Shown: piece after piece, positions 1,834-19,728 of the stretch
Layout of the letters: every line of letters begins with the position of its first letter
Numbering within the stretch: position 1 is the first letter of the stretch
Source: Bacteroidales bacterium
GTDB lineage: Bacteria; Bacteroidota; Bacteroidia; Bacteroidales; UBA932
Direction of reading: 5' to 3'
DNA: 32,140 nt
Assembly: GCA_017428245.1 (NCBI GenBank)
Contig: JAFRRF010000026.1
Coordinates: forward strand, 1 to 32,140
Made by a program: the position numbers and the translations under genes
The notes under the pieces: generated by a model
The model's input: the letters and a program-made list of their open reading frames with translations, nothing else
What the model was told of the DNA's origin: nothing
Databases searched by the model: none

Positions 1834-1955
1834 TCTTTTCCTATTGATACATTTCAATAATATCCTGAAGACACGTGCCTGCCGATCCGATTCCGGCTCC
1901 AAGAAAAACAGCCTCTAGAGTAAGAGGACCTAAAAGACAACAATGCCTTGAGAGT

Positions 1956-1986
1956 CAAAGTTAATAAAGTTTTTCATTATTCCAAA
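1956..1986 (-). promoter_or_regulatory. Bacteroidetes-type promoter, minus strand
   Basis: On the minus strand TTTG (plus bases 1983-1986) is followed after exactly 19 bases by TAACTTTG (plus bases 1956-1963). This fits the Bacteroidetes -33/-7 consensus TTTG-N19-21-TAnnTTTG without mismatch. Transcription would start near 1949 and run into the small membrane protein gene at 1833, with a leader of about 115 bases. The -33 box lies just beyond the end of the IS30 remnant, so the promoter may have come with the element. Confidence 0.6.
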
Positions 1987-2016
1987 GGCGCCCTGTAACC
2001 GAGAGACTTACGGAGC

Positions 2017-2176
2017 CTATGGTTTCTGCTTACTGAAGTCCGCCCCGTTCGGGATGTACTGGCGTATCAGCCCGTTTATGTTCTCGTTTGCTCCCCACTC
2101 CCAGAAGTGAGGCTTCAAAGAGTTGTACTTCGGAATAGAATCCGGCAGGTTTGCCTGCGAGCTGAGTTTCACTTCG
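2017..2176 (-). pseudogene. IS30-family transposase, C-terminal remnant
   Basis: Translating the minus strand in the frame ending at TAG (plus 2017-2019) gives a C-terminus containing WEWGANENINGLIRQYIPNG, then ADFSKQKP. This matches the IS30-family signature around the last catalytic glutamate of the DDE triad (typically W-x-R-G-x-NEN-x-NGL-x-RQY-x-P-K-G). Only about 50 codons remain: the N-terminal DNA-binding region and the first two catalytic aspartates are absent. The frame dissolves into a poly-A tract at 2179-2188 that belongs to the groEL terminator region. The substitutions (WEWG for WERG, IPNG for FPKG) also point to decay. It is non-functional. I could not identify terminal inverted repeats with confidence. 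Confidence 0.75.
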
Positions 2177-2178
2177 GC

Positions 2179-2206
2179 AAAAAAAAAACGGCGTTTTTCT
2201 TAGCCG
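2179..2206 (-). terminator. Hairpin with long T-tract downstream of groEL (minus strand)
   Basis: On the minus strand CGGC-N10-GCCG (plus 2189-2206) is followed by ten consecutive T residues (plus 2179-2188). An alternative pairing of AAAAAC with GTTTTT around GCC is also possible. Either looks like a second intrinsic terminator for the groES-groEL transcript, behind the stronger stem at 2225-2259. Confidence 0.5.
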
Positions 2207-2224
2207 AAAATGTCCAAAAACGAA

Positions 2225-2259
2225 TCCGGCCAAGAAATCGCAGGGAAATCTTGGCCGGA
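2225..2259 (-). terminator. Terminator hairpin of the groES-groEL operon
   Basis: A perfect 11-bp inverted repeat, TCCGGCCAAGA and TCTTGGCCGGA, with a 13-base loop lies about 35 bases after the groEL stop. On the minus strand it is followed by TTCGTTTTT. Position, stem strength and T-rich tail make it a likely intrinsic terminator. Confidence 0.65.
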
Positions 2260-2294
2260 AAGGGTGTCCGGATAAACCGGGTATGACAGATCGA

Positions 2295-4210
<1,916 letters not shown>

Positions 4211-4239
4211 AGTTGTGTATTTTTTTGTTGTTTATTGTT

Positions 4240-4247
4240 TAATTTTG
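4240..4247 (+). promoter_or_regulatory. -7 box of a Bacteroidetes-type promoter for the 4288 gene
   Basis: TAATTTTG fits the -7 consensus TAnnTTTG in the divergent 77-bp gap between groES and the lipoprotein gene. A matching -33 TTTG at the right distance is not clear (only TTGTG near 4213-4217). Transcription would start near 4254, about 34 bases before the ATG. Confidence 0.4.
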
Positions 4248-4287
4248 CACTGCTGGACTAGGCAAATTGAGTGCCAACAGCCGATAT

Positions 4288-5115
4288 ATGACAAAATGTC
4301 ACCTGCTTCTCCTGGGAAGTTTTCTCCTGATGCTGGCCGCCTGCAAAGGCGGCACGACGGGGCCGTCGCTGTCAGAATACGGCGCCCGCTCCCAGGCCAC
4401 GCGGAGCATCCGCTTCGAACAATATGTCGTCGATTTGTGGAACACCGCACCGGAAACCGCACGGCAGCGGCAGGACAGTCTGCTCACCGCAGCGGAAGGC
4501 GACAGTGCGCAGTGGCGGCAACTCATTGACCTGGAAGACCGTTTCCTCTTCGATCCAAACAGCCCCTACCGCAACGAAGAACTCTATCTGCCCGTGGCGG
4601 AGCATCTTCTGACGGCGCCCTATGCCACCGAAGAGCAGCGGAGCAGGGCCGGATGGATGCTGCCGAAACTCCGCCTCAACCGCCCGGGAACCCAGGCCGC
4701 TGATTTTGAATTCCTCACGCCGCAAGGCCGGCGGACCAGCCTGTATGCCATTATGGATGCCCGCAAGCCGCAGCTTACGGTTCTCTTTTTCAGCAATCCC
4801 GGCTGCAACAACTGCAAGGAGGTCACCGAAGCCTTTTCGCATAGCCTGTATATGCAGTCCCTGATTGAAAATGGAAGTCTGTTGGTAGTCAATATCTATC
4901 CCGACGAGGATGTACAGGCCTGGCTCGACTACCTTCCCCAGTATCCGAAAGAATGGGTGTGCGGCCACGACCCCGACAACGTCATCCGGAGCGACACCCG
5001 TTACTGGTTGCGAGCCATCCCGTCGATCTATCTGCTGGACGGACAAAAACGGGTCATTCTCAAGGATGCCCCGCCCGAAACAGTCCTGACGACACTCAGA
5101 TATAACCCAGAATAA
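4288..5115 (+). CDS. Exported lipoprotein with thioredoxin-like (TlpA/DUF5106-like) domain
   Basis: This is probably a periplasm- or envelope-facing thiol-disulfide protein. The ATG at 4288 is chosen because it starts a textbook lipoprotein signal peptide, MTKCHLLLLGSFLLMLAAC, with lipobox LAAC and Cys19 as the lipidated residue. An upstream in-frame TTG at 4267 would spoil it. Residues about 30-130 form a helical domain resembling the DUF5106 region of Bacteroidetes TlpA-like proteins. Residues about 135-275 form the thioredoxin fold, with a CNNC redox motif at 173-176 following strand LTVLFFSNPG and a cis-Pro-type AIPSIYLLDG segment near residue 245. It is divergent from groES, and 20 bp separate it from the next gene, so the two are probably co-transcribed. 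The substrate is unknown; the DUF5106 label is from memory of the family layout. Confidence 0.75.
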   Translation: MTKCHLLLLGSFLLMLAACKGGTTGPSLSEYGARSQATRSIRFEQYVVDLWNTAPETARQRQDSLLTAAEGDSAQWRQLIDLEDRFLFDPNSPYRNEELYLPVAEHLLTAPYATEEQRSRAGWMLPKLRLNRPGTQAADFEFLTPQGRRTSLYAIMDARKPQLTVLFFSNPGCNNCKEVTEAFSHSLYMQSLIENGSLLVVNIYPDEDVQAWLDYLPQYPKEWVCGHDPDNVIRSDTRYWLRAIPSIYLLDGQKRVILKDAPPETVLTTLRYNPE

Positions 5116-5135
5116 CACCTATCCCGAACATCCTT

Positions 5136-6527
5136 ATGAAGAAGACTTTGCTTTTTATCCTGTTGCTGAGTTGTTTTCCCGCATTCGGCCAGCAGGCGTT
5201 TGACAACAACCTGGTCAGACCTACCGACGAACTCGGACAGATTTATCTCGACATGCCGTTGCTGACGCTGCCCGCGCAGGCGGACGCCTACAGGACCACC
5301 GGCGGGTTTTTCCGTTCCTACCTGAATCCCGGCATGGAGAACAGCCTGGCTTATTCCACGGACCTGTATACGGCAGCGCATTTCGGCTTGAAAAAGGCCA
5401 TCCTTTTCAAGAACAGCCAGTTCCTGACGACCTTCCTGCAGCGTATGGCCATCAGCGTCTTCGACGTGGTCTATATGCAACAGCCGCTGGGCGGTTCCTG
5501 GCTGCATGAGGAATACCACCGCGCCGTAATGACGAAATACGGCGTGAACAGCTACAACGAAGTGCTGGATCCGCATTTCTGGGCCAGTTCCATCGCCGTC
5601 AGCCACGAGAAGGACGAGGATCTGGCGATGATCTGCAACCAACACCGTCCCGATTTCGTGCGCCTGATGAGCGCGGGACACGAAGCGATTGTCGACCTGA
5701 ACCGCACCCTGCAGGCCAACGGGTTCTTCTACCACCAGAACCTCGACAACGAGGTGCTGTACTGGATGCATTCCATGCAGAACCTGATCTATGTGATGTC
5801 CTGCGCCAACGGCGGCGGCGACGCCGGCATGCAGGAGCGCAATGCCATCGAAAAAACCATCGAATCGCGCGATTTCACCGGCATGGACATGAATGCCTGG
5901 ATCTACGAACTGTGCTATCCCGACCGGCCGTATGAGGCGCGCGGCCTCCATCCGAGCGGCGTCGGCATCAACCGCTATATCCTGTCCGACATGATTCCCG
6001 AAGAAGGAAAACAGTATCTGCGCAAGCAGGCGGGCCTGGAAATCTTCAACTTCGTCTCCCCGATGATGGTGGGCTTCACCCGCTTCCGCCTGGCGCAGAC
6101 CGATGCCGGCGCATACTACGGCAACTTCGCTTTCCGGCACTATCTCACCGCATTCGGCAGCGACGTCTCGCTGGACCTGTACCTGCAGGCGCCGAAATAC
6201 AATGTGTACTCCACGGTGCATACCTATCACAACTTCGACCACCATTTCGGCGGCCTGGAAGTGGGCCTCGTCGATTATCCCCTGCTGGACAACCGCATGC
6301 AGGTCGGCGGTACGGTGATGGGCTGGGTCCAGCCGAAGGAAATGGCATTCAAGACAGCATCTGGCTCCGTCGGCGGACTGGTCAAGACCCGGCTGAATTA
6401 TCACAGCCGCGTCGTAGATCCGTATGCCGAACTGGGCTGGAAGAGCAAAGGCTGGGTCGCCGGCAACGTCAATCTCGACAGCGGGTTCTTCCTGCGGGCG
6501 GGTCTCCGCTGGCAGATCGGACGATAA
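5136..6527 (+). CDS. Exported, probable outer-membrane protein with HExxH motif
   Basis: I do not recognise a named family. The 463-residue protein has a signal peptide (MKKTLLFILLLSCFPAFGQ, cleavage near 19). A globular region of about 30-310 follows. From about residue 310 to the end, alternating strands and turns finish in FFLRAGLRWQIGR, which suits a beta-barrel or outer-membrane anchoring. The globular part holds SWLHEEYHRA with HEEYH at 124-128, an HExxH pattern typical of zinc metallopeptidases. GHEAIVDLNR at about 181-190 could supply a further glutamate ligand. It follows the thioredoxin-fold lipoprotein by 20 bp and ends 13 bp from the convergent ispE. A peptidase role is inference from the motif alone; a structural porin-like protein is the alternative. 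Confidence 0.6.
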   Translation: MKKTLLFILLLSCFPAFGQQAFDNNLVRPTDELGQIYLDMPLLTLPAQADAYRTTGGFFRSYLNPGMENSLAYSTDLYTAAHFGLKKAILFKNSQFLTTFLQRMAISVFDVVYMQQPLGGSWLHEEYHRAVMTKYGVNSYNEVLDPHFWASSIAVSHEKDEDLAMICNQHRPDFVRLMSAGHEAIVDLNRTLQANGFFYHQNLDNEVLYWMHSMQNLIYVMSCANGGGDAGMQERNAIEKTIESRDFTGMDMNAWIYELCYPDRPYEARGLHPSGVGINRYILSDMIPEEGKQYLRKQAGLEIFNFVSPMMVGFTRFRLAQTDAGAYYGNFAFRHYLTAFGSDVSLDLYLQAPKYNVYSTVHTYHNFDHHFGGLEVGLVDYPLLDNRMQVGGTVMGWVQPKEMAFKTASGSVGGLVKTRLNYHSRVVDPYAELGWKSKGWVAGNVNLDSGFFLRAGLRWQIGR

Positions 6528-6540
6528 CGAAAGTGGGAAA

Positions 6541-7281
6541 TCAATAAATGGCAAACAGCGCCGAGCCGCTGCCCGTCATCGCCGCATACAGGGCCCCTTC
6601 GTCATATAGCCGCTGCCGGGCGGCGGCCAGGCTCGGATGCCGTGCGAAGACCGATTCCTCGAAGTCGTTGACCAAAAGACCTTTCCACTCCGATACCGGT
6701 CGTTTCACGATGAATTCGATGGAATGGAGCGGCTCGTGCGGCGTGACGCCTGCATAGGCCTCCCGCGTGGAAACAAATACGTCCTGCGGGTAAATCTGCA
6801 GCCGATGCCCTGCCAGCGAAAAATCGATGGGCGTAAGGATTTCCCCCCTGCCCCGTGCCAGCATCGGCCGGTTGTAAACGAAGAAAGCACAATCGCTGCC
6901 CAGGCTGGCGGCCAGACCGACCAGGTCATCCTGCGGAAGATTCAGGCCGAACAGGGCGTTGAGACCTGTCAGCGTGAAGGCGGCGTCTGCGGAACCGCCG
7001 CCCAGGCCCGCCCCCATCGGAATCTTTTTATAAAGATGAATCGCCACGGGCGGGATTCCGAAACGGTCGTGCAGCAGCCGCCAGGCCTTTTCACAGAGAT
7101 TCTCGCCTTCGATCCTGGCATTGTACAGATGCATTTCGAACGCGTCGGAATGGACGATTTCGAGCACGTCGCACAAATCCGGCACAGGAAAAAAGAGGGT
7201 CTCAATGTCGTGATACCCGTCGGAACGTCTCCGTACGACATTGAGGCCCAGGTTAATCTTCGCATTTGGAAACAACAGCAT
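6541..7281 (-). CDS. ispE: 4-diphosphocytidyl-2-C-methyl-D-erythritol kinase
   Basis: IspE phosphorylates CDP-methylerythritol with ATP in the cytoplasmic MEP pathway of isoprenoid synthesis. The N-terminus FPNAKINLGLNVVRRRSDGYH is the IspE signature with catalytic Lys8. The GHMP-kinase ATP loop PMGAGLGGGSADA is at residues 88-100. The catalytic Asp is at 130 in SLGSDCAFF, and the C-terminal glycine-rich MTGSGSALFAIY closes the protein. At 246 residues it is somewhat shorter than the usual 270-290, mostly at the C-terminus, where it ends directly after the MTGSGSALF motif. It is transcribed convergently with the 5136 gene and divergently from the 7461 operon. The ribosome-binding site is weak. 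Confidence 0.95.
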   Translation of the reverse strand: MLLFPNAKINLGLNVVRRRSDGYHDIETLFFPVPDLCDVLEIVHSDAFEMHLYNARIEGENLCEKAWRLLHDRFGIPPVAIHLYKKIPMGAGLGGGSADAAFTLTGLNALFGLNLPQDDLVGLAASLGSDCAFFVYNRPMLARGRGEILTPIDFSLAGHRLQIYPQDVFVSTREAYAGVTPHEPLHSIEFIVKRPVSEWKGLLVNDFEESVFARHPSLAAARQRLYDEGALYAAMTGSGSALFAIY

Positions 7282-7328
7282 CGGATCTGCAGATAAAACC
7301 TGTTACGAAGTTACGCCAAAACGGGAGT

Positions 7329-7345
7329 GCCCCGACGGGCTTTTT
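7329..7345 (+). other. Small hairpin followed by T-run between ispE and the 7461 operon
   Basis: GCCC-CGAC-GGGC is followed by TTTTT, and a further T-run comes a few bases later (CGGCTTTTTTT). It looks terminator-like on the plus strand, yet no plus-strand gene lies upstream within this gap. On the minus strand it would fall in the ispE leader. Role unclear. Confidence 0.3.
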
Positions 7346-7377
7346 CGGCTTTTTTTCAACAAATCCATAAACAATAG

Positions 7378-7388
7378 CGCAAATTGCG
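7378..7388. promoter_or_regulatory. Palindrome CGCAA-A-TTGCG, possible operator
   Basis: A perfect 5-bp inverted repeat around a single central A lies about 45 bp upstream of the -7 box of the 7461 promoter. Size and position suit a regulator-binding half-site pair, but no binding protein is implied by the sequence. Confidence 0.25.
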
Positions 7389-7405
7389 TAGTGCAACACT
7401 CAAAT

Positions 7406-7430
7406 CGTGTGCTAAGCACGCGCGTTTTTT
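7406..7430 (+). other. Hairpin with T6 tail overlapping the 7461 promoter
   Basis: CGTGTGC-TAA-GCACGCG forms a 7-bp stem (one G-T pair) with a 3-base loop, followed by CGTTTTTT. Structurally it resembles an intrinsic terminator on the plus strand. It lies on the -33 region and directly before the -7 box, so it may instead be an operator, or insulate the operon from read-through. Confidence 0.4.
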
Positions 7431-7440
7431 CATACCTTTG
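7408..7440 (+). promoter_or_regulatory. Promoter of the duplicated-module operon
   Basis: TACCTTTG (7433-7440) matches the -7 consensus TAnnTTTG. Twenty-one bases upstream TGTG (7408-7411) matches the -33 TTTG at three of four positions. Transcription would start near 7447, only about 14 bases before the ATG. GGAGG at 7446-7450 lies close to that predicted start. Confidence 0.55.
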
Positions 7441-7460
7441 TAAACGGAGGAAATCCGGTC

Positions 7461-9170
7461 ATGATCCGTTCGCAAAGACTTATCGACCTGTCCGTTTCGC
7501 TGCTGCTGCTGGTGGCCGCCACAGTCTATTTCTCGGTATGGTATGCCTTCCATACCGTGAACCTGGAGCAACTGCAGCTGTTTGAAGGTACGTGGGCCTA
7601 TTTCGCGGAAACGGTATCCGTCCCGGGCGGCTTTTCCGATTACCTCGGCCGGTTCCTGACCCAGTTCTTCTACCACGCCTGGCCCGGCGCACTCATCCTC
7701 GCCGGCCTCCTGGTCCTGATCCGCACCCTTCTGCGTCGGGTCTGCACGCGGAAAGATGCCGTCATCGGTGCGGCCACCTTCCTCCCTTCCATCCTTCTGA
7801 TGATGGTGATGTGTCTCCGTTTCCCCACGGTCAGCCTGCTGACCGCATTCTGCCTCACGCTCGTCGCCGTCCTCGCCGTCAAGAGAATCCGATCGACCAA
7901 AATCCGCCGCATCTGCACCTTCCTCCTGATTCCGGTCCTGTATCTGCTGCTGGGCAGCCTCGTGGTCCTGTTTGCCGCCATCGTCGCCATCCAGGAGCAC
8001 AACTGGCGCTTCAGCGTCGTGGCCCTGCTGCTGGCGATTGCCTGCCCGCTGGTTGCGAGCCTGGTCTTCCCCTACCCGCTGGGAAGGCTATTCTACGGGC
8101 TGAGTTACTATAAGGTCCACGTCCGGATGCCCGTGTGGCCGTGGGTAGCGGCCGTAGCGGCCGCCGCCGTCGTGGCCTTGGCGGAAAGCCGGCTCCTGGC
8201 CGAAAACGACCGGGCCTGGCGGGCCGCTTACGCCGCCGTCTTTATCCTTGCCATCCCGGCCGTCCTGCTCTGCAGCAGCCGGAACGACGAGCAGAGCCTC
8301 CGCTACAACAGCCTCGCCGGCAAGCGGGCCTGGAACCGCATCGTCACCGAAGCCACCCGGCGGGCCCCGAAGACCTATGGGGAAACCGCCTGCCTCAACC
8401 TCGCCCTCTGCAAGACGGGGCACCTGGGCGGCCATATGTTCGAATTCCAGCAGGACGGCCCCGAGACGCTCCTGCCCAACGAAAACACGCCCCACCACGA
8501 CGGCCTCTCCACCGCGGAGATCTTCTATCAGCTGGGGATGGTAAACAATGCCAGGCGCTACTGCTTCGAGGCCCTCAACGCCATCCCGGACTACCAGAAA
8601 AGCGCACCGGTCTTCAAACTGCTGGCGGAAATCAGCCTGGTCAACGAAAACTTCGAAATGGCCCGGAAATATCTGACCACGCTCAGCCACACCCTGTTCT
8701 ACCGGAGATGGGCGAACGAGCGGATCGCCCTGCTGAAGGACCCCGCCGGTCCCTTCGTTCTCAACGAATACACCGAAAAACGCTACGAGCGCTACAAAGG
8801 CGAAGACTACATCTTCGATTACAACCAGGCCGACGCTTCGATCAAGCAGCTGCTGGTCGAGCACCCGGGCAACCTCACGGCGCTGAATTACCTGCTTGCC
8901 TGGTACCTTCTCCACAAATTCACGGGCGACTTCGTCGCGGCCTGTCCGTTCGAAGCGTTTACTTCGGCCGTCCCCAAAGCCTGGCAGGAAGGGTTCGTGC
9001 TCGACTGGAACCGGTCCGGCTATCCCGCCGACGATCTCCCGGAGTTCATCACGCCTTCTCTCGCCGCGCGTTTCGAAGCCTTCACCCGAGACTTCAACGC
9101 CAACGTCCCCCTCGCGGCCATGCAGGAACGGTATGGGGACACATACTGGTTTTATTATTTCTTCAAGTAG
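7461..9170 (+). CDS. Polytopic membrane protein with C-terminal helical-repeat domain (DUF6057-like), copy 1
   Basis: This is a 569-residue membrane protein of a Bacteroidetes family that I tentatively equate with DUF6057; no biochemical role is known to me. About eight hydrophobic helices fill residues 10-280 (for example near 10-30, 75-93, 100-140, 155-180, 188-210, 222-243, 255-272). Conserved aromatic motifs lie between them, such as GRFLTQFFYHAWPG. Residues about 285-569 are soluble and alpha-helical with TPR-like spacing (for example AEIFYQLGMVNNARRYCFEA and KLLAEISLVNENFEMARKYL), ending in a striking DTYWFYYFFK. It is the first gene of a five-gene operon, with the CxxCH propeller gene starting 3 bp after its stop. 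The 10624 gene is its tandem paralogue. The membrane-plus-helical layout suggests a scaffold or channel-like partner for the propeller protein, but this is inference. Confidence 0.7.
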   Translation: MIRSQRLIDLSVSLLLLVAATVYFSVWYAFHTVNLEQLQLFEGTWAYFAETVSVPGGFSDYLGRFLTQFFYHAWPGALILAGLLVLIRTLLRRVCTRKDAVIGAATFLPSILLMMVMCLRFPTVSLLTAFCLTLVAVLAVKRIRSTKIRRICTFLLIPVLYLLLGSLVVLFAAIVAIQEHNWRFSVVALLLAIACPLVASLVFPYPLGRLFYGLSYYKVHVRMPVWPWVAAVAAAAVVALAESRLLAENDRAWRAAYAAVFILAIPAVLLCSSRNDEQSLRYNSLAGKRAWNRIVTEATRRAPKTYGETACLNLALCKTGHLGGHMFEFQQDGPETLLPNENTPHHDGLSTAEIFYQLGMVNNARRYCFEALNAIPDYQKSAPVFKLLAEISLVNENFEMARKYLTTLSHTLFYRRWANERIALLKDPAGPFVLNEYTEKRYERYKGEDYIFDYNQADASIKQLLVEHPGNLTALNYLLAWYLLHKFTGDFVAACPFEAFTSAVPKAWQEGFVLDWNRSGYPADDLPEFITPSLAARFEAFTRDFNANVPLAAMQERYGDTYWFYYFFK

Positions 9171-9173
9171 GTT

Positions 9174-10643
9174 ATGCGCGCACGAATTCCCCTGTTGATG
9201 CTGGTTTTGCTCACGGCCCTTTCCTGCGGTCGCGGCCTGCACGATCCCGTGTTCTCCGGGCGGGAGCCCCGCATCTTCCCGGACTATCGGGACGTGACGA
9301 TTCCCGCCACCATTGCGCCGCTCAACTTCTCGATGGACCAGGCCGAGCGCCTCGACGTGACGCTCACGGGCGACGACGGCACTATCCTGCACGTCCACGG
9401 TTCGATGGCGCGTTTCCCCCGGAAGGCCTGGCGGAAACTGTTGCAGGCTAACGTGGGCGGGGCCATCCAGGTCGACGCATACGGATTCACCGAAGGGCAG
9501 TGGATGCAGCACAGGCCGTTCCACTTCTATGTCAGCGAGGATGCCATCGACTACGGACTGGCCTACCGGCTCATCCTCCCTTCCTATGAGGGAATGGGAA
9601 AACTCGGCATCTACGAACGGGACCTGTCGTCCTACCGGCAGAAGGAACTTATCAGCACCGAAGAGGTCAACGGCTGCCTCAACTGCCATTCCTTCAACCA
9701 GTGCGACCCCAAGGACCTGAACCTGCACGTGCGCGGCTCCTATGGCGGCACCCTGATCCAGCAGCAGGCGCAACTGAAGGCGTTCGACACCAAGACCGAC
9801 TCCACGATCTCGAGTTGCGTCTACCCGTACTGGCACCCGTCCGGCAACTACATCGCCTACTCCAACAACACCACCCGGCAGGGGTTCTACCAGCGGGCGG
9901 AGAATGTCCTGGAAGTTTTCGACTACGCGTCCGACATCGTGGTCTACGACATCCGGAACAACCGGCTCCTGTCGTGCCCCCTGCTGAAAAGCGAAAGCGC
10001 CTGGGAAACCTTCCCTGCCTTCTCCCCGGACGGCAAGTCGCTCTATTTCTGCAGCGCCGCGCCCAAGGCCATTCCCCAGCAGATGAATGAAATCCGCTAC
10101 AATCTCTGCCGCATCGCCTTCGATCCGGAAAGCGGCCGTTTCGGCGACCGGGTCGACACGCTGGTCCTGGCCGCCCCGGCCGGCTTCAGCGTCTCTTTCC
10201 CGCGTCCGTCGTTTGACGGGAAATACCTGATGTACACCGTCTCGTCGTTCGGCAATTTCACGATCTGGCACCGGGATTCGGATTTGTGCCTGCTCGACCT
10301 GACGACCGGCGCTTCGTGGAACCTGGCGAGCGCGAACAGCCCCGACGCCGCCGACAGCTACCACAACTGGAGCAGCAACAGCCGCTGGTTCGTGTTCGGC
10401 AGCCGCCGCGACGACGGCACCCACACCCGCGCCTACATCTGCCATATCGATGCGGACGGCGTGCCGGGCAAACCCTTCCTGCTGCCCCAGCGGAAGCCAC
10501 GTGAATACTACGACAATATGCTGCGGAGTTTCAACATCCCCGAATTCGTGACGGAACCCGTGCCCCTGAACAGCCACAAGGCCTGGCGGCTGCTCAGGCG
10601 GGGCAAGAAAGAACAGTTCAATTATGGAACGGATATCCCTTAA
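9174..10643 (+). CDS. Exported PD40/TolB-like beta-propeller protein with CxxCH motif, copy 1
   Basis: The protein has 489 residues. The N-terminus MRARIPLLMLVLLTALSC is an export signal and probably a lipoprotein one (Cys18, lipobox less than ideal). Residues about 25-160 form a domain with FPDYRDVTIPATIAPLNF and YVSEDAIDYGLAYRLI. GCLNCHSF follows, a CxxCH c-type haem-attachment motif with Cys168, Cys171 and His172. The rest is a beta-propeller with PD40/TolB-type blades, such as YPYWHPSGNYIAYS, FPAFSPDGKSLYFCS and NSRWFVFGSRRDDG. It starts 3 bp after the membrane-protein gene, and its 3' end overlaps the next membrane-protein gene by 20 bp. The motif sits at the same residue number in the paralogue at 12333, which argues for function. 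Actual haem binding is unproven. Confidence 0.75.
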   Translation: MRARIPLLMLVLLTALSCGRGLHDPVFSGREPRIFPDYRDVTIPATIAPLNFSMDQAERLDVTLTGDDGTILHVHGSMARFPRKAWRKLLQANVGGAIQVDAYGFTEGQWMQHRPFHFYVSEDAIDYGLAYRLILPSYEGMGKLGIYERDLSSYRQKELISTEEVNGCLNCHSFNQCDPKDLNLHVRGSYGGTLIQQQAQLKAFDTKTDSTISSCVYPYWHPSGNYIAYSNNTTRQGFYQRAENVLEVFDYASDIVVYDIRNNRLLSCPLLKSESAWETFPAFSPDGKSLYFCSAAPKAIPQQMNEIRYNLCRIAFDPESGRFGDRVDTLVLAAPAGFSVSFPRPSFDGKYLMYTVSSFGNFTIWHRDSDLCLLDLTTGASWNLASANSPDAADSYHNWSSNSRWFVFGSRRDDGTHTRAYICHIDADGVPGKPFLLPQRKPREYYDNMLRSFNIPEFVTEPVPLNSHKAWRLLRRGKKEQFNYGTDIP

Positions 10644-12336
10644 ACAGACGTTGTTTCCGGGCTTGTTCGCCCTGGCCGTCTTCCTCTTCTTCTGGCTGGC
10701 CTACCCCTACCACGTCTACAGCCAGGAGCAGTTCCAGCTATTCCAGTTCTCCTGGCGGTATTGGGCCGAAACCCTGGCGGTTCCCGGCGGGCTGGCCGAC
10801 TGGTGTGGCCGGTTCCTGACGCAGTTCTTCTATTATTCGGCGGCGGGCAGCCTCATCCTCGCGCTGTTGCTCGCGGCAATCCAGGCCGTGACGGCGGCCC
10901 TGGCGAAAAGTCCGTCACCGCTCGGATATGCCCTGACCTTCGTCCCGTCCATCCTGCTGCTGATCTACTGCTGCGATGCCGACGCCATGCCCTGCACACT
11001 GGTGGCGGTCCTGCTGTCGCTGCTCTGCGCCCTGGCGGTCCTCCGCATCCGCCCCGCCCTTCTGCGAAACGGCATCGCCGTCGTCGCGACCGCCCTGCTC
11101 TATTTCCTGCTGGGTCCGCTTTCGGTGCTGTTCATCATCGCTTATCTCGTCCACGAGCGGAAGTGGCTGCCAGGCCTTCTGATGGCGGCCGTCTTCGCCG
11201 GATGCATCGTCTGCTTCCACAAGACGATGGGCTATCCTTACTACCGGCTCCTGTACGGCATCAACTACTACCGCTTCCACCATCATATGCCGGCCTGGCC
11301 GTGGATCGCTGCGGCGGCCGAAGCGCTGGTGCTGGTCTTTGCGCCGATCTTCAAGCGGCAGTGCAAGGCCTGGGAAGGAACCGCGGCCTTCGGCGCGGTG
11401 ATGGTCCTCGGTGCCCTGGGCGTCTTCCTTGCCTATGACGGCGAGATGGAGACCTATCTCAAATACGACTTCCTGACGCGAAGGTTCCAGTGGAACGCCA
11501 TCCTCGCGGAAGCCCGGAAAGACAATCCCCAGAAGCCGTTCGAGATGGCCAGCGTGAACCTGGCGCTCGTCAAGACGGGCAACGCCCACCGGCTGTTCGA
11601 CTTCTACCAGAACGGCCCGGACGGCCTGCTCCCGAAATACACCAACGACTACATCCACCCGCTGATTCCTTCCGAAGCCTATTTCCAGCTCGGCATGATC
11701 AATTCCTCCCAGCGCTATACTTTCGAAGCGCAGGAACTGATCCCGGACTTCCAGAAGAGCGTCCGGGCTTACAAGCGGCTGGCGGAGACCAACCTGATCA
11801 ACGGGAACCACAAGGTGGCCGAAAAATATCTGAAAGCCTTGGAAAAGACACTCTTCTACCGGGGCTGGGCGCGAGCCAAAATGGCGCTGTGCGGCAACGA
11901 TGCGGCCATCGACGCGGATCCGGGCTACGGATACCTCCGCAGCGTCCGGCTCCACGACCACGACTTCCTCTTCAACCGGCAGGCCATGGAGACCATGCTG
12001 GGTTATCTGGTCCAGGAGAATCCCGCCAACCATATGGCGCTGGAATACCTGCTCTCCTGGACACTCCTCGACAAGAACCTGAAAGGCTTTGTGCGCTTCT
12101 GCCCCTTCGAGGGATTCCCGGGCGGCGTGCCGCGCTGCTATCAGGAGGCATTTCTGCTGGACTTCGCCGACACGGCACACAGCCTGGACAACGTACCCGA
12201 TTTCATCGAACCGGCCGTGATCAATGCGTTCAATCTCTTCATGCGGGAACACGGCAGCGGGGCGCCGGCCGAAACCCTCGCCAAGCAGTTCGGCCACACC
12301 TATTGGTACTACTATTTCTATCGATTGGGCGTATGA
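10624..12336 (+). CDS. Polytopic membrane protein with C-terminal helical-repeat domain (DUF6057-like), copy 2
   Basis: This 570-residue paralogue of the 7461 product has nearly the same length and collinear motifs (QFFYYSAAGSLILA near residue 75, HMPAWPWIAAAAE near 225, and C-terminal HTYWYYYFYRLGV). About eight membrane helices occupy residues 10-275. A helical, TPR-like soluble domain occupies 285-570 (for example SEAYFQLGMINSSQRYTFEA). The ATG at 10624 lies inside the 3' end of the preceding propeller gene (20-bp overlap), so translation is probably coupled. Its own stop overlaps the next start as ATGA. The protein copies have clearly diverged, so the duplication is not recent. Function unknown, as for copy 1. 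Confidence 0.7.
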   Translation: MERISLKQTLFPGLFALAVFLFFWLAYPYHVYSQEQFQLFQFSWRYWAETLAVPGGLADWCGRFLTQFFYYSAAGSLILALLLAAIQAVTAALAKSPSPLGYALTFVPSILLLIYCCDADAMPCTLVAVLLSLLCALAVLRIRPALLRNGIAVVATALLYFLLGPLSVLFIIAYLVHERKWLPGLLMAAVFAGCIVCFHKTMGYPYYRLLYGINYYRFHHHMPAWPWIAAAAEALVLVFAPIFKRQCKAWEGTAAFGAVMVLGALGVFLAYDGEMETYLKYDFLTRRFQWNAILAEARKDNPQKPFEMASVNLALVKTGNAHRLFDFYQNGPDGLLPKYTNDYIHPLIPSEAYFQLGMINSSQRYTFEAQELIPDFQKSVRAYKRLAETNLINGNHKVAEKYLKALEKTLFYRGWARAKMALCGNDAAIDADPGYGYLRSVRLHDHDFLFNRQAMETMLGYLVQENPANHMALEYLLSWTLLDKNLKGFVRFCPFEGFPGGVPRCYQEAFLLDFADTAHSLDNVPDFIEPAVINAFNLFMREHGSGAPAETLAKQFGHTYWYYYFYRLGV

Positions 12337-13805
12337 AAAAGAGTCTCCTTCTCTCCTTGCCGCTGCTGCTCGCCGTCCTGGCGTGCACCGGCCATCCCGA
12401 CCGCTTCGCGCCGGCCGGCCGGCAGCCGGACATCTATCCCGATTACATCGGTGTAACCGTCCCCGCCACCATCGCGCCCCTCGACTTTGACATCGACGGC
12501 GCAGAGAAGGTGATTGCCGTCGCGGAAGGGCTGGACGGCCAGACCGTCAAGGCTTCCGGCAAAAGCGCCAATTTCCCCGTCAAGGCCTGGCACAAGCTGC
12601 TGGCCGCATCCCGGGGCGGGACGGTCAAGGTCACGGCGTGCGGAAAGTTCGACGGGAAATGGACGCGGTTCGAGCCGTTCGAGATCTATGTCAGCGAAGA
12701 CGCCATCGACTACGGCATCGCCTACCGGCTCATCGCCCCGGGCTACCAGTCCTTCTCCCACATCGGCATCTACGAAAGGGACCTGTCGTCGTTCGACGAG
12801 GTCTGTCTGATCGGCGGCAAGAACTTCGACGGCTGTGTGAACTGCCATTCCTTCAACCGTACCCGGCCGGAGTTTTTCAGCCTCCACGTACGCGGCGAAA
12901 GAGGGGCGACCTTCATTATGAAGGACGGCAAGACCGTCGCCTACGATATGAAGACCGACTCCACGCTGGCCGCCTGCGTCTATCCCAGCTGGCATCCCGA
13001 CGGACGGTTCATCGCCTACTCCACCAATGTCAACCGGCAGGGTTTCTACCAGCGCCACGACAAGGTACTCGAGGTGTACGACCTCAAGTCGGACCTGCAG
13101 GTGTACGACACCGAGAAAAACGTGCTGATCACCTCGCCGGAGGTGAAGGTGGACGGCGTGAACGAGAACATGCCGGCCTTCTCGGCCGACGGCCGCGCCA
13201 TCTATTTCGCTTCCTGCACGGAGCAAGAAATCCCCCGCAACGTGACGGAAGTCCGCTACAATCTCTGCCGCGTGGATTTCAACCCCGAAACCGGCGACAT
13301 CGGTCACAAGGTGGACACGCTGGTCTTCGCCGAAGCGATGGGCAAGAGCGTTTCCTTCCCGAAACCTTCCTATGACGGTCGGTGGATTATGTATCAGCTG
13401 GCGGACTACGGCTGCTTCGGGGCCTGGCACCACGAGTCGGACCTGTGGCTCCTCGACCTCCGGACCGGAGAAACCCGGCCGCTCGACGGGGTGAACAGCG
13501 ACGATGCCGAGAGCGCCCACAGCTGGAGTTCCAACTCCCGCTGGTTCGTCTTCGGCAGCCGGCGCGACGACGGGCTCTATACCCGGGCCTACATCTGTCA
13601 CATCGATGAAAACGGCGTGTGCGCAAAACCGTTCATGCTGCCCCAGAAGAGCCCGCGCGACTTCTACGACAGCAGCGTCCGGTCGTACAATGTGCCGGAA
13701 TTCGTCGCAGGCCCGGTCGATTTCAACGGCATTGACGCCGTACGCCTGTATAACAGCGATAAGCGGACTAAAGTGGGTTTCCGATGGTCAGACTCCTCTT
13801 TATAA
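12333..13805 (+). CDS. Exported PD40/TolB-like beta-propeller lipoprotein with CxxCH motif, copy 2
   Basis: This 490-residue paralogue of the 9174 product starts at the ATG at 12333, which overlaps the preceding stop as ATGA. The open frame extends much further upstream, but only through the membrane-protein gene. MKKSLLLSLPLLLAVLAC is a clear lipoprotein signal (lipobox VLAC, Cys18). It shares PDYIGVTVPATIAPLDF, YVSEDAIDYGIAYRLI and IYERDLSSF with copy 1, then GCVNCHSF with Cys168, Cys171 and His172. PD40-like blades follow (YPSWHPDGRFIAYST, MPAFSADGRAIYFAS, NSRWFVFGSRRDDGLYTRAY). The 3' end overlaps the XylR-type regulator by 22 bp. I infer a surface or periplasmic protein that binds a ligand or carries out redox chemistry, paired with the membrane protein encoded just before it. 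Confidence 0.78.
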   Translation: MKKSLLLSLPLLLAVLACTGHPDRFAPAGRQPDIYPDYIGVTVPATIAPLDFDIDGAEKVIAVAEGLDGQTVKASGKSANFPVKAWHKLLAASRGGTVKVTACGKFDGKWTRFEPFEIYVSEDAIDYGIAYRLIAPGYQSFSHIGIYERDLSSFDEVCLIGGKNFDGCVNCHSFNRTRPEFFSLHVRGERGATFIMKDGKTVAYDMKTDSTLAACVYPSWHPDGRFIAYSTNVNRQGFYQRHDKVLEVYDLKSDLQVYDTEKNVLITSPEVKVDGVNENMPAFSADGRAIYFASCTEQEIPRNVTEVRYNLCRVDFNPETGDIGHKVDTLVFAEAMGKSVSFPKPSYDGRWIMYQLADYGCFGAWHHESDLWLLDLRTGETRPLDGVNSDDAESAHSWSSNSRWFVFGSRRDDGLYTRAYICHIDENGVCAKPFMLPQKSPRDFYDSSVRSYNVPEFVAGPVDFNGIDAVRLYNSDKRTKVGFRWSDSSL

Positions 13806-14944
13806 CTGACTTTACAGAATCTTTCGCCTACGCCCTGCTGCGCGGCATCATCCGCTACTCCAACGAGACCGGACAATGGGTGGTGTGCCGGATGCCGCCG
13901 GCTTACAAACGGAGTCTGGGCCTGGCCGGCGTCATCAAGTGGGCGAAGAAATGGGGCGCCGACGTGGTGATCGGACAGTTTGAGAAATCCGACCCCGTGG
14001 AGCTGTTCCGGCGCAACGGCATCGTGGCCTTCGCCCAGGACTACAAAGCCAAGTTCGACAACATTCCGAACATCACGGGCGATTATATCAAGACCGGCCG
14101 GATGGCGGCCGACCTCTATCTGCACAAAGGTTTCCGTAATTTCGCCTTTTTCGGCTACCAGGACGTCTGCTGGTCCGACGAGCGCTGCGCCGGCTTCCGC
14201 CAGCGGATCGAGGAAGCCGGGTTCGGCGACCATTTCTATGTTTACGACAAACAAGTCATCGACAACCTCTGGTACTATGAGGCGGAGGATCTCAAGAAAT
14301 GGCTGCTTTCGCTCCCCAAGCCCGTGGCCGTGATGGCCTGCGACGACAACCAGGGAAACGCGCTGATCGAGGCCTGCAACTCGGCCGGGGTGAAGATTCC
14401 GTCCGAACTTTCGCTCATCGGCGTGGACAATGACGAAGTCATCTGCACGCTCTCCAACCCCACACTCTCCAGCATCATGGTCGATATCGAGCAGGGCGGC
14501 TATGAGACCGCCCAGATGGCGGTCCGAATGATCCAGGACCCTTCCTTCCAAGGAAGCGACATCACCCTCCAGCCCAAACGCATCGTCCACCGGGTGTCCA
14601 CCTCCGCCTATGCCACCACCGACAAGGACGTGCTGACCGCACTACAGTTCATCCGGCAGAACCTCCACAAGAAAATCACGGTCAGCGACGTGCTGGAGCA
14701 GGTTCCGCTCTCGCGCAGACTGCTGGAAGTCCGCTTCAAGAAAGTGCTCGGGGAATCCATCTACCAGTATATCTCCAAGCAGCGGATCGGCCGCTTCTCG
14801 GAACTGCTCCTTGAGACCAACGACGCCATCCAGGAAATCGCCTATACGATGGGCGAAGATGACGCCAAAAGTATCTGCCGAAGGTTCAAGGAGTTAAAAG
14901 GCTGTACCCCATCGGAGTGGCGCAGTCAAAAAAACGCAAATTGA
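13784..14944 (+). CDS. XylR-type transcriptional regulator (periplasmic-binding-like sensor plus AraC HTH)
   Basis: This 386-residue sugar-responsive regulator resembles the XylR group. Residues about 1-270 form a LacI-like periplasmic-binding-protein sensor, without the LacI DNA-binding head (MVRLLFITDF start; MACDDNQGNALIEACNSAGV; ELSLIGVDNDEVIC). Residues about 285-383 form an AraC-type double helix-turn-helix (KITVSDVLEQVPLSRRLLEVRFKKVLG and the second helix pair ending TPSEWR). The start at 13784 lies inside the preceding propeller gene (22-bp overlap), making it the last gene of the 7461 operon. Directly downstream lies the promoter region of the ROK-led PUL, so it most likely controls that locus and possibly its own operon. 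The inducer is unknown; an amino sugar is my guess from the targets. Confidence 0.88.
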   Translation: MVRLLFITDFTESFAYALLRGIIRYSNETGQWVVCRMPPAYKRSLGLAGVIKWAKKWGADVVIGQFEKSDPVELFRRNGIVAFAQDYKAKFDNIPNITGDYIKTGRMAADLYLHKGFRNFAFFGYQDVCWSDERCAGFRQRIEEAGFGDHFYVYDKQVIDNLWYYEAEDLKKWLLSLPKPVAVMACDDNQGNALIEACNSAGVKIPSELSLIGVDNDEVICTLSNPTLSSIMVDIEQGGYETAQMAVRMIQDPSFQGSDITLQPKRIVHRVSTSAYATTDKDVLTALQFIRQNLHKKITVSDVLEQVPLSRRLLEVRFKKVLGESIYQYISKQRIGRFSELLLETNDAIQEIAYTMGEDDAKSICRRFKELKGCTPSEWRSQKNAN

Positions 14945-14956
14945 GTATTTAAATAC
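14945..14956. promoter_or_regulatory. Perfect 12-bp palindrome, possible operator
   Basis: GTATTTAAATAC follows the XylR-type gene's stop codon immediately and lies about 34 bp upstream of the -7 box of the PUL promoter. It is a candidate binding site for the regulator encoded next to it. As an AT-rich palindrome it could also arise by chance. Confidence 0.35.
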
Positions 14957-14962
14957 GCAAAT

Positions 14963-14984
14963 TACACATTCTTCTCCCTGTGTA
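14963..14984. promoter_or_regulatory. Inverted repeat TACACA-N10-TGTGTA, possible operator
   Basis: Six perfectly paired bases per arm with a 10-base spacer (one helical turn plus arms) overlap the -33 region of the PUL promoter. That is where an AraC-type activator would be expected to contact DNA. Confidence 0.35.
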
Positions 14985-14989
14985 TTCAG

Positions 14990-14997
14990 TAATTTTG
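14990..14997 (+). promoter_or_regulatory. -7 box of the PUL promoter
   Basis: TAATTTTG fits TAnnTTTG, 36 bases upstream of the ROK kinase ATG. No good -33 TTTG is present at the expected 19-21-base distance, which is typical of a promoter needing an activator. Confidence 0.45.
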
Positions 14998-15032
14998 TAT
15001 TGCTGATACTGTAACCCTTTTGACTGAAAACT

Positions 15033-15863
15033 ATGAGATTAGGTATCGACATCGGCGGTACGAACATCGTATTTGGCCTGTTCGGTGAAGACGGCCAGCT
15101 CGTCCGCTCCGCCTCCGTCCGCTCTTTTGCCAGGGATGCCTCCCTGGAGAGCACCCTTCAGTCGCTGCAGGACCGGATCGGGGAATTCCTCACGCCGGAG
15201 GTCACCTCCATCGGCATCGGCGTTCCCTCCGCCCTCGACCGCGAAACGGGTGTCGTCTACAACGCCGTCAACATCCCGTCCTGGCAGAACGTGCCGCTCA
15301 AACAGATCCTGGAAGCCCGCTTCCACGTTCCCGTCCGGCTGAACAATGACGCCAACTGCTTCGCGCTCGGCGCCTACCGGCATTTCGCGGAAGAAAAACC
15401 GCAGTCGTTCGTGGGCGTGACCCTGGGAACGGGCGTCGGCCTGGGCATCGTCATCGACGGCGAACTCTACAACGGCCACAACACCGGAGCCGGCGAAATC
15501 GGCTGCATCCGGTATCTGGACGCCGACCTGGAAACGTACTGCAGTTCTCCCTTTTTCACCCGGAAAGGCACCACTTGCAAGCAGGTGGCGGAAGCCGCGG
15601 CGCAGGGCGATCCGCAGGCGCTGGCGCTGTTCCAGGAAGTCGGCGGCCATATCGGCAACCTGGTTGCCACCATCCTCTACGCCTACGATCCCGAAATGCT
15701 CGTGCTGGGCGGCGGGATTTCCCGGGCGTTCCCCTATTTCAAGGACAGCATGAAAGCCTGCCTCGAAAAGGTCTTCATCTATCCCGAAACATTGAAAAGA
15801 CTCAAAATCAGACAAATCGACAACGACGAAATCGCGCTAATCGGAGCAGCATATTTACAATGA
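15033..15863 (+). CDS. ROK-family sugar kinase lacking the zinc-binding motif
   Basis: This is probably a cytoplasmic sugar or amino-sugar kinase, 276 residues long. The N-terminal phosphate loop is MRLGIDIGGTNIVFGLF, the catalytic aspartate is Asp106 in LNNDANC, and a second ATP-binding motif TLGTGVGLGIVIDG spans about 130-143. ROK enzymes usually continue with GAGEIGH and a CxCGxxGCxE zinc cluster. Here the stretch reads GAGEIGCIRYLDADLETYCS: the zinc-ligand histidine is Cys158 and the cysteine cluster is missing. Similar zinc-less ROK proteins occur in Bacteroidetes, so the gene need not be inactive. It is the first gene of the PUL, and its stop overlaps the GH2 start as ATGA. Substrate inferred from neighbours: glucosamine or N-acetylglucosamine. 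Confidence 0.85.
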   Translation: MRLGIDIGGTNIVFGLFGEDGQLVRSASVRSFARDASLESTLQSLQDRIGEFLTPEVTSIGIGVPSALDRETGVVYNAVNIPSWQNVPLKQILEARFHVPVRLNNDANCFALGAYRHFAEEKPQSFVGVTLGTGVGLGIVIDGELYNGHNTGAGEIGCIRYLDADLETYCSSPFFTRKGTTCKQVAEAAAQGDPQALALFQEVGGHIGNLVATILYAYDPEMLVLGGGISRAFPYFKDSMKACLEKVFIYPETLKRLKIRQIDNDEIALIGAAYLQ

Positions 15864-18382
15864 AAGTTTTTAGGTTAATGTTGTTTTGGGCCGCCGCCGT
15901 ATTGGCGACGGCGAACTGCGGCTCCCCCAGTGTCCAGCCGGGCGACAAGACCGCCTTTGCCGACGGCTGGACACTGCAATGTGCGGAGGGAGGACAAACG
16001 TACAGCGCCACAGTCCCTTCGACCGTGGCCGGCGTCCTTTATGCCAACTGCGTCATCACCGACGAAGACTTCCTGGACGACAATTACCGGAAGATCGACA
16101 AAACCCCGTTCGACAAGCCCTGGACCTACACGAAACAGTTCTCCGGGAAGGGAATGGCCGGGAAGCACGTCTTCCTCCAGTTCGACGGCATCGGTTATTC
16201 CGCCGACATCTGCCTGAACGGCACGAAACTCCGGGCGAAAGACACCACCTTCGGCGTCTTCAACCGCTACACACTCGATGTGACCGACTGCATCAAGCGG
16301 TCCAACAAACTCGAAGTCACGCTGGAACGGGCCCGGAAGGGCGATCTCAACGTGGGCTACGTAGACTGGAATCCCCGTCCGGTCGACGAAAGCATGGGCC
16401 TCTGGCGCGACGTGACCCTTTCTGTCACCGGCGACGTCCGGATGAGCGACGGCTTCGTCCGCCCGCAGGTGCGGGAGGATCTCTCCGCCGCCGACCTGAC
16501 CGTCAGCGCCGTGCTCACCAACCTGACGGACAAGGAGACCGAAGCTCTGTTTAAAGGCAGCTTTGAAAACGGAACCTTCGAAGTTCCCGTCCGGCTCGCA
16601 CCGAAGGAAAGCCGGGAAATCGTCGTGACCCCCGCCGAAGCGCCGGTGCTACACGTCGACAAACCGCGCCTCTGGTGGTGCTCCGGGCTTGGCTCCCCTG
16701 AACTGTACCATATGGATCTCCAGGTCGATTGCAGCGGCCTTTCCGATAAGGATGCCATCACCTTCGGCATCCGGAGCATCGACGCCTACCTCGACGAATA
16801 CGGTCACCGTCAGTTCGTCCTCAACGGCCACAAGGTCCTGATCAAGGGTGCCGGCTGGACCGACGACATCTTCATGCGCGACACCCACGAAAACATCGAG
16901 CGGCAGGTCTGCCTGGTGAAGGACATGAACCTCAATACCATCCGCTTCGAGAACATCTGGGGCAAAGACCGTTACGTGTACGATATGTGCGACAAATACG
17001 GCATCCTGGCCCTGGTGGGCTGGAGCTGCCAGTGGGAATGGGAAGACTATTGCGGTCTCCCCGAAACCGACGGCTTCGGCTGCATCGCCACGCCGGAAAC
17101 CATGGACCTGGCCTATTCGTATTTCGTCAACCAGGTCAAATGGCTGCGCAACAACGTGTCGGTCATCGGCTGGATGACCGGCAGCGACCGGCTCCCCCAT
17201 CCGGACCTGGAACCGCGTTATCTGGAAGCTTACGCCCGGCTCGACTACCGGCCGTACATCGGCTCGGCCAAGAGCCTGGTGAGTGAACTGTCAGGCCCGT
17301 CGGGCACGAAGATGGAAGGCCCGTACGAGTATATCGGACCCGACTACTGGTATCTCGACACCCGCTGCGGAGGCGCCTTCGGCTTCAACACCGAAACGGG
17401 CATCGGCGCCAATCTTCCCCAGATCGAGTCGCTCCGCAAGATGGTCTCCGAAGACAAGCTCTGGCCGCCGGAGGCTGCCATCGGCCGCCACGCCACCGCG
17501 TCCGGCTCGGCGATGAACAACACGAAGTATCTCGAGGCGACCATCGCGGGCCTCTACGGCGAAGCCGGCGACCTGGAAGACTTTGTCCGGAAAGGACACG
17601 CCGTGGATTATGACGGAACCCGGGCCATGTTCGAAGCTTTCCGCGCCAATCTTCCCCGGACCACCGGCATCGTCCAGTGGATGCTCAACTCCGCCTGGCC
17701 GTCGATCTATTGGCAGCTCTACGGCCACGACCTGGTGCCGACGGCCGGCTACTACGGCACGAAGAAAGCCTGCGAACCCGTGCAGCTCATCTATAATATA
17801 AAGGATGCCTGCGTCTATGCCGTCAACGAAACGGGCAAGCCCGTGGCCGTCAAGGCTTCTTTCCAGCTGCTCGATGCGAACTCCAAACCCGTGGCCGCCG
17901 ACAGCAGGACGGTCACCGTCTTCGACCGGGAACCGCTGAAGGTCTTCGATCTGACCAGATTCAAAAACAGGGAGACATTCCTCGCCCTCAAACTCGACGA
18001 TGCGGACGGTAATCCGGTGACCGACAATTTCTATTGCCTGCCGGCCCGATGGAATAACTACGACTGGGCGAAAGCCAACTGGTACCTGACACCTATCGTG
18101 AAATATGCAGATATGCGTTTCGTCTCGCAACTGCCCGCCGCCAGCGTCCGCTTCGATGCCGTTGCCGACAAGGACGGCTACCGGGTGACCGTCACCAACG
18201 ACAGCGACGTGGTCGCTTACCAGAACATCCTCACGCTCAAGGACGCCGCGGGCAACCTGGTTGTCCCGGCCTTCTGGAGCGACAACTTCTTCTCCCTGCT
18301 GCCCCACGAGACCAAAGAAGTGACCTGCCGGACCGAAGGCGGTGCGACGGGAACCGTCGGACTCACCCACTGGAATCAATGA
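15860..18382 (+). CDS. GH2 glycosidase, exo-beta-D-glucosaminidase-like (CsxA type)
   Basis: This 840-residue exported glycosidase uses the ATG at 15860, overlapping the ROK stop as ATGA. MKVFRLMLFWAAAVLATANC is a signal peptide and possibly a lipoprotein one (Cys20, with an unusual Asn before it). It has the GH2 layout: sugar-binding domain (about 30-200), Ig-like domain (200-310), TIM barrel (310-640) and C-terminal beta domains. The exo-beta-glucosaminidase branch is marked by WMTGSDRLPHPD, with Asp443 where most GH2 enzymes have Asn-Glu, and by FNTETGIGANLPQIE with nucleophile Glu512. CsxA of Amycolatopsis uses Asp469 and Glu541 in the same way. It would release non-reducing-end glucosamine from beta-linked chains. 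The related endo-beta-mannosidase branch is the main alternative. Confidence 0.82.
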   Translation: MKVFRLMLFWAAAVLATANCGSPSVQPGDKTAFADGWTLQCAEGGQTYSATVPSTVAGVLYANCVITDEDFLDDNYRKIDKTPFDKPWTYTKQFSGKGMAGKHVFLQFDGIGYSADICLNGTKLRAKDTTFGVFNRYTLDVTDCIKRSNKLEVTLERARKGDLNVGYVDWNPRPVDESMGLWRDVTLSVTGDVRMSDGFVRPQVREDLSAADLTVSAVLTNLTDKETEALFKGSFENGTFEVPVRLAPKESREIVVTPAEAPVLHVDKPRLWWCSGLGSPELYHMDLQVDCSGLSDKDAITFGIRSIDAYLDEYGHRQFVLNGHKVLIKGAGWTDDIFMRDTHENIERQVCLVKDMNLNTIRFENIWGKDRYVYDMCDKYGILALVGWSCQWEWEDYCGLPETDGFGCIATPETMDLAYSYFVNQVKWLRNNVSVIGWMTGSDRLPHPDLEPRYLEAYARLDYRPYIGSAKSLVSELSGPSGTKMEGPYEYIGPDYWYLDTRCGGAFGFNTETGIGANLPQIESLRKMVSEDKLWPPEAAIGRHATASGSAMNNTKYLEATIAGLYGEAGDLEDFVRKGHAVDYDGTRAMFEAFRANLPRTTGIVQWMLNSAWPSIYWQLYGHDLVPTAGYYGTKKACEPVQLIYNIKDACVYAVNETGKPVAVKASFQLLDANSKPVAADSRTVTVFDREPLKVFDLTRFKNRETFLALKLDDADGNPVTDNFYCLPARWNNYDWAKANWYLTPIVKYADMRFVSQLPAASVRFDAVADKDGYRVTVTNDSDVVAYQNILTLKDAAGNLVVPAFWSDNFFSLLPHETKEVTCRTEGGATGTVGLTHWNQ

Positions 18383-19695: not shown

Positions 19696-19728
19696 CCAAC
19701 ATCAATACAACCTACAAACAAACCTGTT

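Follow-up and report, generated by a model that had tools for sequence, protein, structure and literature searches.

The 32,140-nucleotide stretch of DNA analysed here (the window) comes from an assembly of a Bacteroidales bacterium (GTDB lineage Bacteroidales; UBA932; GCA_017428245.1, contig JAFRRF010000026.1) and carries two head-to-tail copies of a two-gene module. Each module encodes a multi-pass membrane protein of the DUF6057 family (PF19529) and a propeller lipoprotein with a CxNCH motif, and the two families are found together almost without exception. The best explanation, offered tentatively, is a periplasmic two-protein machine in which the propeller docks on the tetratricopeptide repeat (TPR) domain of a protein whose membrane part is TMTC/TMEM260-like. 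The four genes are the following.

7461-9170, + strand: DUF6057 membrane protein of module a, 569 aa (PF19529, E 6.8e-128, 428.5 bits)
9174-10643, + strand: CxNCH PD40 propeller lipoprotein of module a, 489 aa (PD40, E 3e-11; motif CLNCH)
10624-12336, + strand: DUF6057 membrane protein of module b, 570 aa (PF19529, E 2e-157, 526 bits)
12333-13805, + strand: CxNCH PD40 propeller lipoprotein of module b, 490 aa (PD40, E 1.2e-12)

An earlier sequence-only reading had described two head-to-tail copies of one two-gene module, and the coordinates, lengths, strand and spacing of these open reading frames (ORFs) agree with it. The genes are separated by a 3-bp gap (7461/9174), a 20-bp overlap (9174/10624), and a 4-bp ATGA overlap (10624/12333). 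PF19529 (gathering cut-off, 29.8 bits) covers nearly the whole length of both membrane proteins in the Pfam scan. Copies a and b share 38% identity in DUF6057 and 51% in the propeller. The window genes overlap at the junction of modules a and b; at L116, the named relative nearest to the window, the two modules are separated by a lipoprotein-like gene of 538 aa (L116:4682-6298).

A scan with the propeller alignment confirmed 203 relatives, and the best 80 of these 203 provide the Bacteroidota loci used below, many of them from rumen Prevotella or Prevotellaceae. With the propeller as bait, this set is biased toward close relatives and toward pairs viewed from the propeller side. In these loci, DUF6057 lies directly upstream of 115 of the 125 propeller ORFs, and four more are at contig edges. 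DUF6057 is also upstream at L140 and L141, beyond the limits of the script, and downstream at L157 and L179. Only two of the 125 are interior propellers without an adjoining partner; the propeller of L135 has no DUF6057 partner. At L125, the propeller (7908-9377) points the opposite way from its DUF6057, and a repetitive ORF (10516-10890) separates the two, an arrangement that possibly arose by DNA inversion.

Sixteen of 149 genomes of the order have DUF6057 above the cut-off. At 37 of the 42 DUF6057 places in this survey (fragments merged), a propeller lies at most 1 kb away on the same strand. The five unpaired places are in G306 (contig end), G399:C79 (275-aa fragment), G325:C97, G350:C88, and G402:C7; the last three genomes each also contain one unlinked propeller, which is broken in G325. 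Partnerless propellers occur in G431 (contig end) and, as distant relatives, in G358:C12 and G366:C35, and G425 has a 252-aa propeller fragment in a genome without a DUF6057 match. Two places in G406 and one in G415 have the pair in the opposite gene order. The survey used 44 propeller rows at E 1.1e-24 or better and excluded weaker rows, which are mostly short stretches of longer proteins. Nearest-gap assignment gave the copy b membrane genes of the window and of contig C29 to propeller a, and the adjacent propellers b are thus listed as unpaired. Among 296 genomes of the phylum, DUF6057 exceeds the cut-off in three, and the same three have the propeller (E 1e-12); two further genomes have distant propeller relatives at E 1e-12, with at most five candidates scored per genome. 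DUF6057-propeller pairing is near-obligate. The strict pairing expected from the window alone is borne out in both directions, and a pattern in which the families are mostly apart was not observed in these genomes.

Patristic distances in the DUF6057 and propeller trees correlate with r = 0.866 over 97 pairs, of which two are the window’s and 95 come from the 115 adjacent pairs. The maximum r was 0.099 in 200 full shuffles of partners and 0.657 in 500 within-locus partner swaps (28 loci, 61 modules), none of which reached the observed value. Each DUF6057 matches its own propeller and not the neighbouring one; the congruence that had been predicted was recovered, and non-congruence was not observed. 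In these trees, the partners evolve as fixed pairs, as specific contact would predict, but also pure linkage.

The tandem modules are ancient paralogues that have stayed next to each other. For all 61 modules of multi-module loci, the nearest relative in both trees is in another locus, never the neighbouring copy, and Ks between copies a and b exceeds 1. The word “duplicated” in the sequence-only reading is therefore to be understood of an old event. Contig C29 (L017) of the source assembly is a second copy of window region 1-19756 at 77-86% nucleotide identity; it carries two module pairs and, presumably, groEL and a dnaE-like gene. The source bin therefore probably mixes two related strains or species, which makes an orthologue comparison possible. 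The ratios of nonsynonymous to synonymous substitution (Ka/Ks) between the window and C29 are 0.133 and 0.136 for the DUF6057 genes, 0.106 and 0.082 for the propellers, and 0.028 for groEL. Both module copies are retained by purifying selection and the duplication is ancient, so the proposed divergence and selective retention of both copies holds (Ka/Ks 0.08-0.14).

The source assembly contains eight DUF6057 genes and eight propellers as adjacent pairs (nine DUF6057 matches, two of which belong to one reading frame). Within the family of the source organism, 20 of 119 genomes are above the DUF6057 cut-off, and in seven, not counting the window’s own, two copies lie on the same strand at a spacing of about 3 kb. 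These include the genus-mate G474 (98% complete, 1% contamination); therefore, multiple copies are not a bin artefact. One genus-mate has eight DUF6057-matching stretches.

Structure models of the membrane protein (module b DUF6057) and the propeller have predicted local distance difference test (pLDDT) scores of 94.7 and 93.8. The DUF6057 model comprises about eight membrane helices and a C-terminal TPR domain. In model comparison, the helices weakly resemble the GT-C glycosyltransferase fold, aligning over 244-260 residues with an STT3-like structure at a Z score that is low for a helical fold; the aligned chain is taken to be an STT3-type oligosaccharyltransferase subunit. On these models, a GT-C fold of the membrane domain is slightly favoured. 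Strict GT-C membership was rejected for want of a sequence-family match. Weak DUF6057 matches in other genomes were not discriminating; of six that were looked at, three are presumably FtsW-like and one (L033) GT-C mannosyltransferase-like.

Acidic residues in two outer loops, the first and a later one, were followed as candidate GT-C features. Copy b has both (E35 and D118/D120), and copy a has the first-loop acid (NLEQLQ) and lacks the second. Among 57 full-length DUF6057 rows selected for the alignment from all ORFs (71 for the propeller), the first-loop acid is present in 50, the second in 51, and both in 46. With slightly wider loop windows, 127 sequences divide into 94 with both acids, 14 with the first only, eight with the second only, one with neither, and ten whose membrane part is absent, some being cut by contig ends. 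The idea that each tandem locus combines one complete and one degenerate copy was discarded, as 27 of 33 multi-module loci have at least two copies with both acids.

Loop charges favour an orientation with the N-terminus inside and the TPR domain outside, with one loop ambiguous. In five of 115 non-edge DUF6057 ORFs, all N-terminal hydrophobic segments but one are lost, and one of these ORFs has a lipobox-like motif; all five keep the TPR domain and the propeller. Because of these truncated copies and the loop charges, a TPR domain outside the cytoplasm is suggested. The propeller has PD40 repeats and, in the model, a TolB-like propeller fold, an assignment made with VIA alone. Its lipid-attachment cysteine (C18) is aligned in 123 of 123 propellers, and 89 of 121 have a lipobox-like motif recognisable by a simple pattern. 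This cysteine and the membrane helices of DUF6057 accord with the envelope location given in the sequence-only reading.

Acids after the lipid cysteine serve as a surface-export signal in Bacteroidetes, according to the accessible part of PMC5080379. This signal was not found in the 123 aligned propellers as a family: at least two acids follow the cysteine in 11, and in neither window copy. The frequency among neighbouring lipoproteins with a recognised lipobox is 19/24 for SusD, 10/14 for the family c4, 9/9 for the family c5, and 3/15 for DUF4369 proteins, which are likewise acid-poor. Here too the lipobox was called by a simple pattern, some picks of which may be wrong, and was recognised in 24/37 SusD, 14/15 c4, 9/9 c5, and 15/19 DUF4369 proteins. 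An external TPR domain and the scarcity of acids in the propellers make it probable that the two share the periplasm.

Distant propeller relatives in other Bacteroidota retain CxNCH. Four of them (L111, L207, L208, and L210) are 702-753 aa long, and L111, L207, and L208 have TPR repeats C-terminal to the propeller; Pfam shows no TPR in L110 (582 aa). This fusion architecture argues that the TPR array and the CxNCH propeller may work together. The wider CxNCH-PD40 family, at least three members of which have TPR, gave only generic propeller and TPR matches to Pfam and NCBIfam in the members scanned.

Taken together, the models and sequences suggest the following mechanism. DUF6057 would span the inner membrane through its GT-C-like helical domain and hold its TPR domain in the periplasm, where its own lipoprotein propeller would dock. 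Several lines make this docking likely. The TMTC1-4/TMEM260 protein O-mannosyltransferases are the likeliest model for the membrane domain, which would transfer a lipid-borne sugar to clients that the TPR-propeller unit picks out. Possible clients are the propeller and Sus-type envelope proteins encoded nearby. Catalysis by DUF6057 is a doubtful proposition. More speculative still is a full bacterial counterpart of TMTC/TMEM260, with a dedicated propeller as acceptor or specificity subunit and tandem pairs that would decorate individual Sus-system envelope proteins.

Several results count against a TMTC/TMEM260-like machine. The STT3-like match scores lower than would be trusted for a helical bundle, and DUF6057 proteins have no GT-C family match in Pfam at E up to 1. 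A Foldseek search of the PDB with the DUF6057 model gave no match at E 0.001 or better, and the best 50 matches are mostly TPR and other helical-repeat proteins. A profile match to TMEM260-like proteins is absent in hhalign (probability 0.3%), with small sets of 30, 30, 15, and 4 sequences. The helix count is unsettled by a positively charged loop at 176-183. In the selected alignment, the first-loop acid is missing from seven of the 57 rows and the second from six, including the window’s own copy a. Finally, DUF6057 copies without the membrane domain persist, and tight linkage alone could produce congruent partner trees.

The main competitor, itself rather unlikely, is a non-enzymatic assembly factor. 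Here a worn-out GT-C-like scaffold would serve as an anchor, and the TPR-propeller unit would act in the periplasm as a chaperone of Sus-type outer-membrane complexes or as a platform on which they dock. The TPR-only copies that persist with a propeller and the variable loop acids fit such a role, as does the slightly higher conservation of the TPR half (mean entropy 2.51 vs 2.70 in the membrane half). The retention of both loop acids in 46 of the 57 full-length copies speaks against it. The genomic setting bears on the question from both sides. The test covered the regions longer than 9 kb, namely 67 of 80 loci with a module and 35 of 40 controls, the latter from ten module-positive genomes, with profiles built from module loci and hence favouring them. 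SusD is enriched, being near 36/67 module loci compared with 4/35 controls, but was undetected in the other 31 within the stretch examined. SusC is near 24/67 compared with 5/35, and enrichment is also seen for DUF4369 proteins (20/67 compared with 0/35) and for the lipoproteins c4 and c5 (18/67 and 11/67, each compared with 0/35). The order SusD, c4, module, DUF4369, module recurs at L142, L144, L149, L152, L155, and L163. Near some modules is a protein of 380-388 aa whose C-terminal part is a Rid domain (PF01042; L135:2939-4081 and L018:2705-3871); this protein is not enriched in this test (6/67 vs 1/35); the L135 protein has a weak chorismatase likeness (TIGR04444, below cut-off).

The window itself counts as a Sus-type locus, with SusC and SusD at 19729-24358. 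Its other relevant features are the following.

5136-6527, upstream of the modules: protein of 463 aa whose start resembles a signal peptide and which matches no Pfam family above cut-off
13784-14944, + strand: regulator with a periplasmic-binding-protein-like sensor domain (PF13377, E 4.2e-32) and an AraC DNA-binding domain (PF12833, E 3.9e-16)
19729-22743, + strand: SusC-like porin (PF07715, E 7.5e-19)
22760-24358, + strand: SusD-like lipoprotein (PF12741, E 1.4e-156)

The regulator is followed by a ROK kinase, a GH2 enzyme, a histidine phosphatase, SusC, SusD, and a GH9 enzyme, and then by an acyltransferase-like membrane protein, a phosphoesterase, and a glycosyl-hydrolase-like protein.

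It is improbable that the two proteins belong to the same pathway and merely travel together without interacting. Tight linkage can by itself yield matched trees, and orphan copies exist, such as the L135 propeller and the G425 fragment. However, propeller and TPR are fused in some relatives, pairing survives reversed gene order (G406, G415, L157, and L179), and the genomes in which the genes are unlinked (G350, G402, and G325) hold one copy of each partner, not one partner alone. Of the sequence-only reading as a whole, in which each membrane protein works with its own propeller, the pairing, congruent trees, envelope location, and selection stand, qualified by what linkage alone can explain, the one-plus-one unlinked copies of these three genomes, and the G425 fragment.

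A redox module, in which CxNCH would bind heme c and the pair pass electrons to a periplasmic partner, has a low probability. CxxCH is present in 121 of 121 full-length propellers of the best 80 loci, with N at the third place in 118. The cytochrome-c assembly protein PF01578 occurs in 17/17 module-positive genomes tested and in 15/16 of the order survey, the exception being G306 (61% complete), and ResB (PF05140) in 15/17 of those tested. However, PF01578 is also common where the module is missing (in 104 of 133 such genomes of the order), and the membrane protein has no Pfam match to cytochrome or electron-transfer families. In the model, which does not include heme, CxNCH lies in a beta strand (168-175) and not in a helix. 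No strictly conserved second ligand is found near it, with position 185 being H in 100, Y in 13, and Q in 10 of 123 propellers. Heme c binding is not favoured, and it was set aside as the leading explanation on these last two grounds. Two further candidates were rejected: a three-His metal site (H221, H366, and H396), for which the three residues should have been lost together in one clade but whose losses fall in different sequences with none of 123 losing all three, and a His-to-Met ligand swap between the propeller family and its fused relatives, since H185 aligns with D in the wider alignment. As improbable as the redox module is a trans-envelope sensor, in which the propeller would bind a periplasmic ligand and DUF6057 would pass the signal on to the regulator of the locus. 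The gene for this regulator, at 13784, overlaps the end of the propeller b gene, and this linkage is kept in C29 and L116, but the regulator has its own ligand domain, DUF6057 has no signalling domain in Pfam, and the linkage is seen in the window, C29, and L116 only, with no search made elsewhere.

PF19529, which both window membrane proteins match, is entered as a family without an assigned function. What the present analysis adds to it is the propeller partner, the TPR domain, the GT-C-like fold, the Sus-type setting, and the propeller-TPR fusions. A literature search for DUF6057/PF19529 or the DUF6057-propeller pair, with most subscription journals and bioRxiv preprints outside its scope, found nothing. 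With pairing this strict, the two proteins, neither of which has a known role, can be tested as one system.

Among known systems, the propeller recalls TolB of Tol-Pal, but the window propellers score 21 and 22.9 bits, far short of the TIGR02800 equivalog cut-off of 343.15; unlike TolB, the propeller is a lipoprotein with CxNCH and a DUF6057 partner. Its fold also resembles, over aligned residues 51-434, the N-terminal propeller of 5c2v chain A, taken to be the hydrazine synthase alpha subunit. Kinship with hydrazine synthase was rejected, the propeller fold alone being in common. In the accessible parts of PMC12758564 and PMC12607021, the heme alpha-I motif of that enzyme (His587) is in the middle domain, outside the aligned region. 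STT3 differs from DUF6057 in having no sequence match to it and more helices.

Profile kinship between DUF6057 and TMEM260-like proteins is undetectable. TMEM260-like GT-C proteins (PF11028) were themselves found in all 41 genomes searched within the phylum (L284-L313) and in only one of 14 controls (a Bacteroides), a distribution that offers a lead for protein glycosylation in the phylum. As described in the accessible part of PMC11292533, TMTC1-4 (GT105) and TMEM260 (GT117) combine a GT-C core, which bears acids in its first loop, with TPRs on the luminal side that may bring in clients. DUF6057 would resemble this description in its predicted GT-C-like core followed by a probably outer-side TPR domain and in the first-outer-loop acid of most copies. 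It differs in that its acids are not invariant, it has a dedicated propeller partner, and it occurs in bacterial Sus-type loci. If the membrane part were an active GT-C enzyme, the modules would form a periplasmic glycosylation pair in nutrient loci of rumen and gut Bacteroidota. TPR-guided client choice, which that part of PMC11292533 proposes for the human TMTC enzymes, would then be found in a tractable bacterial pair.

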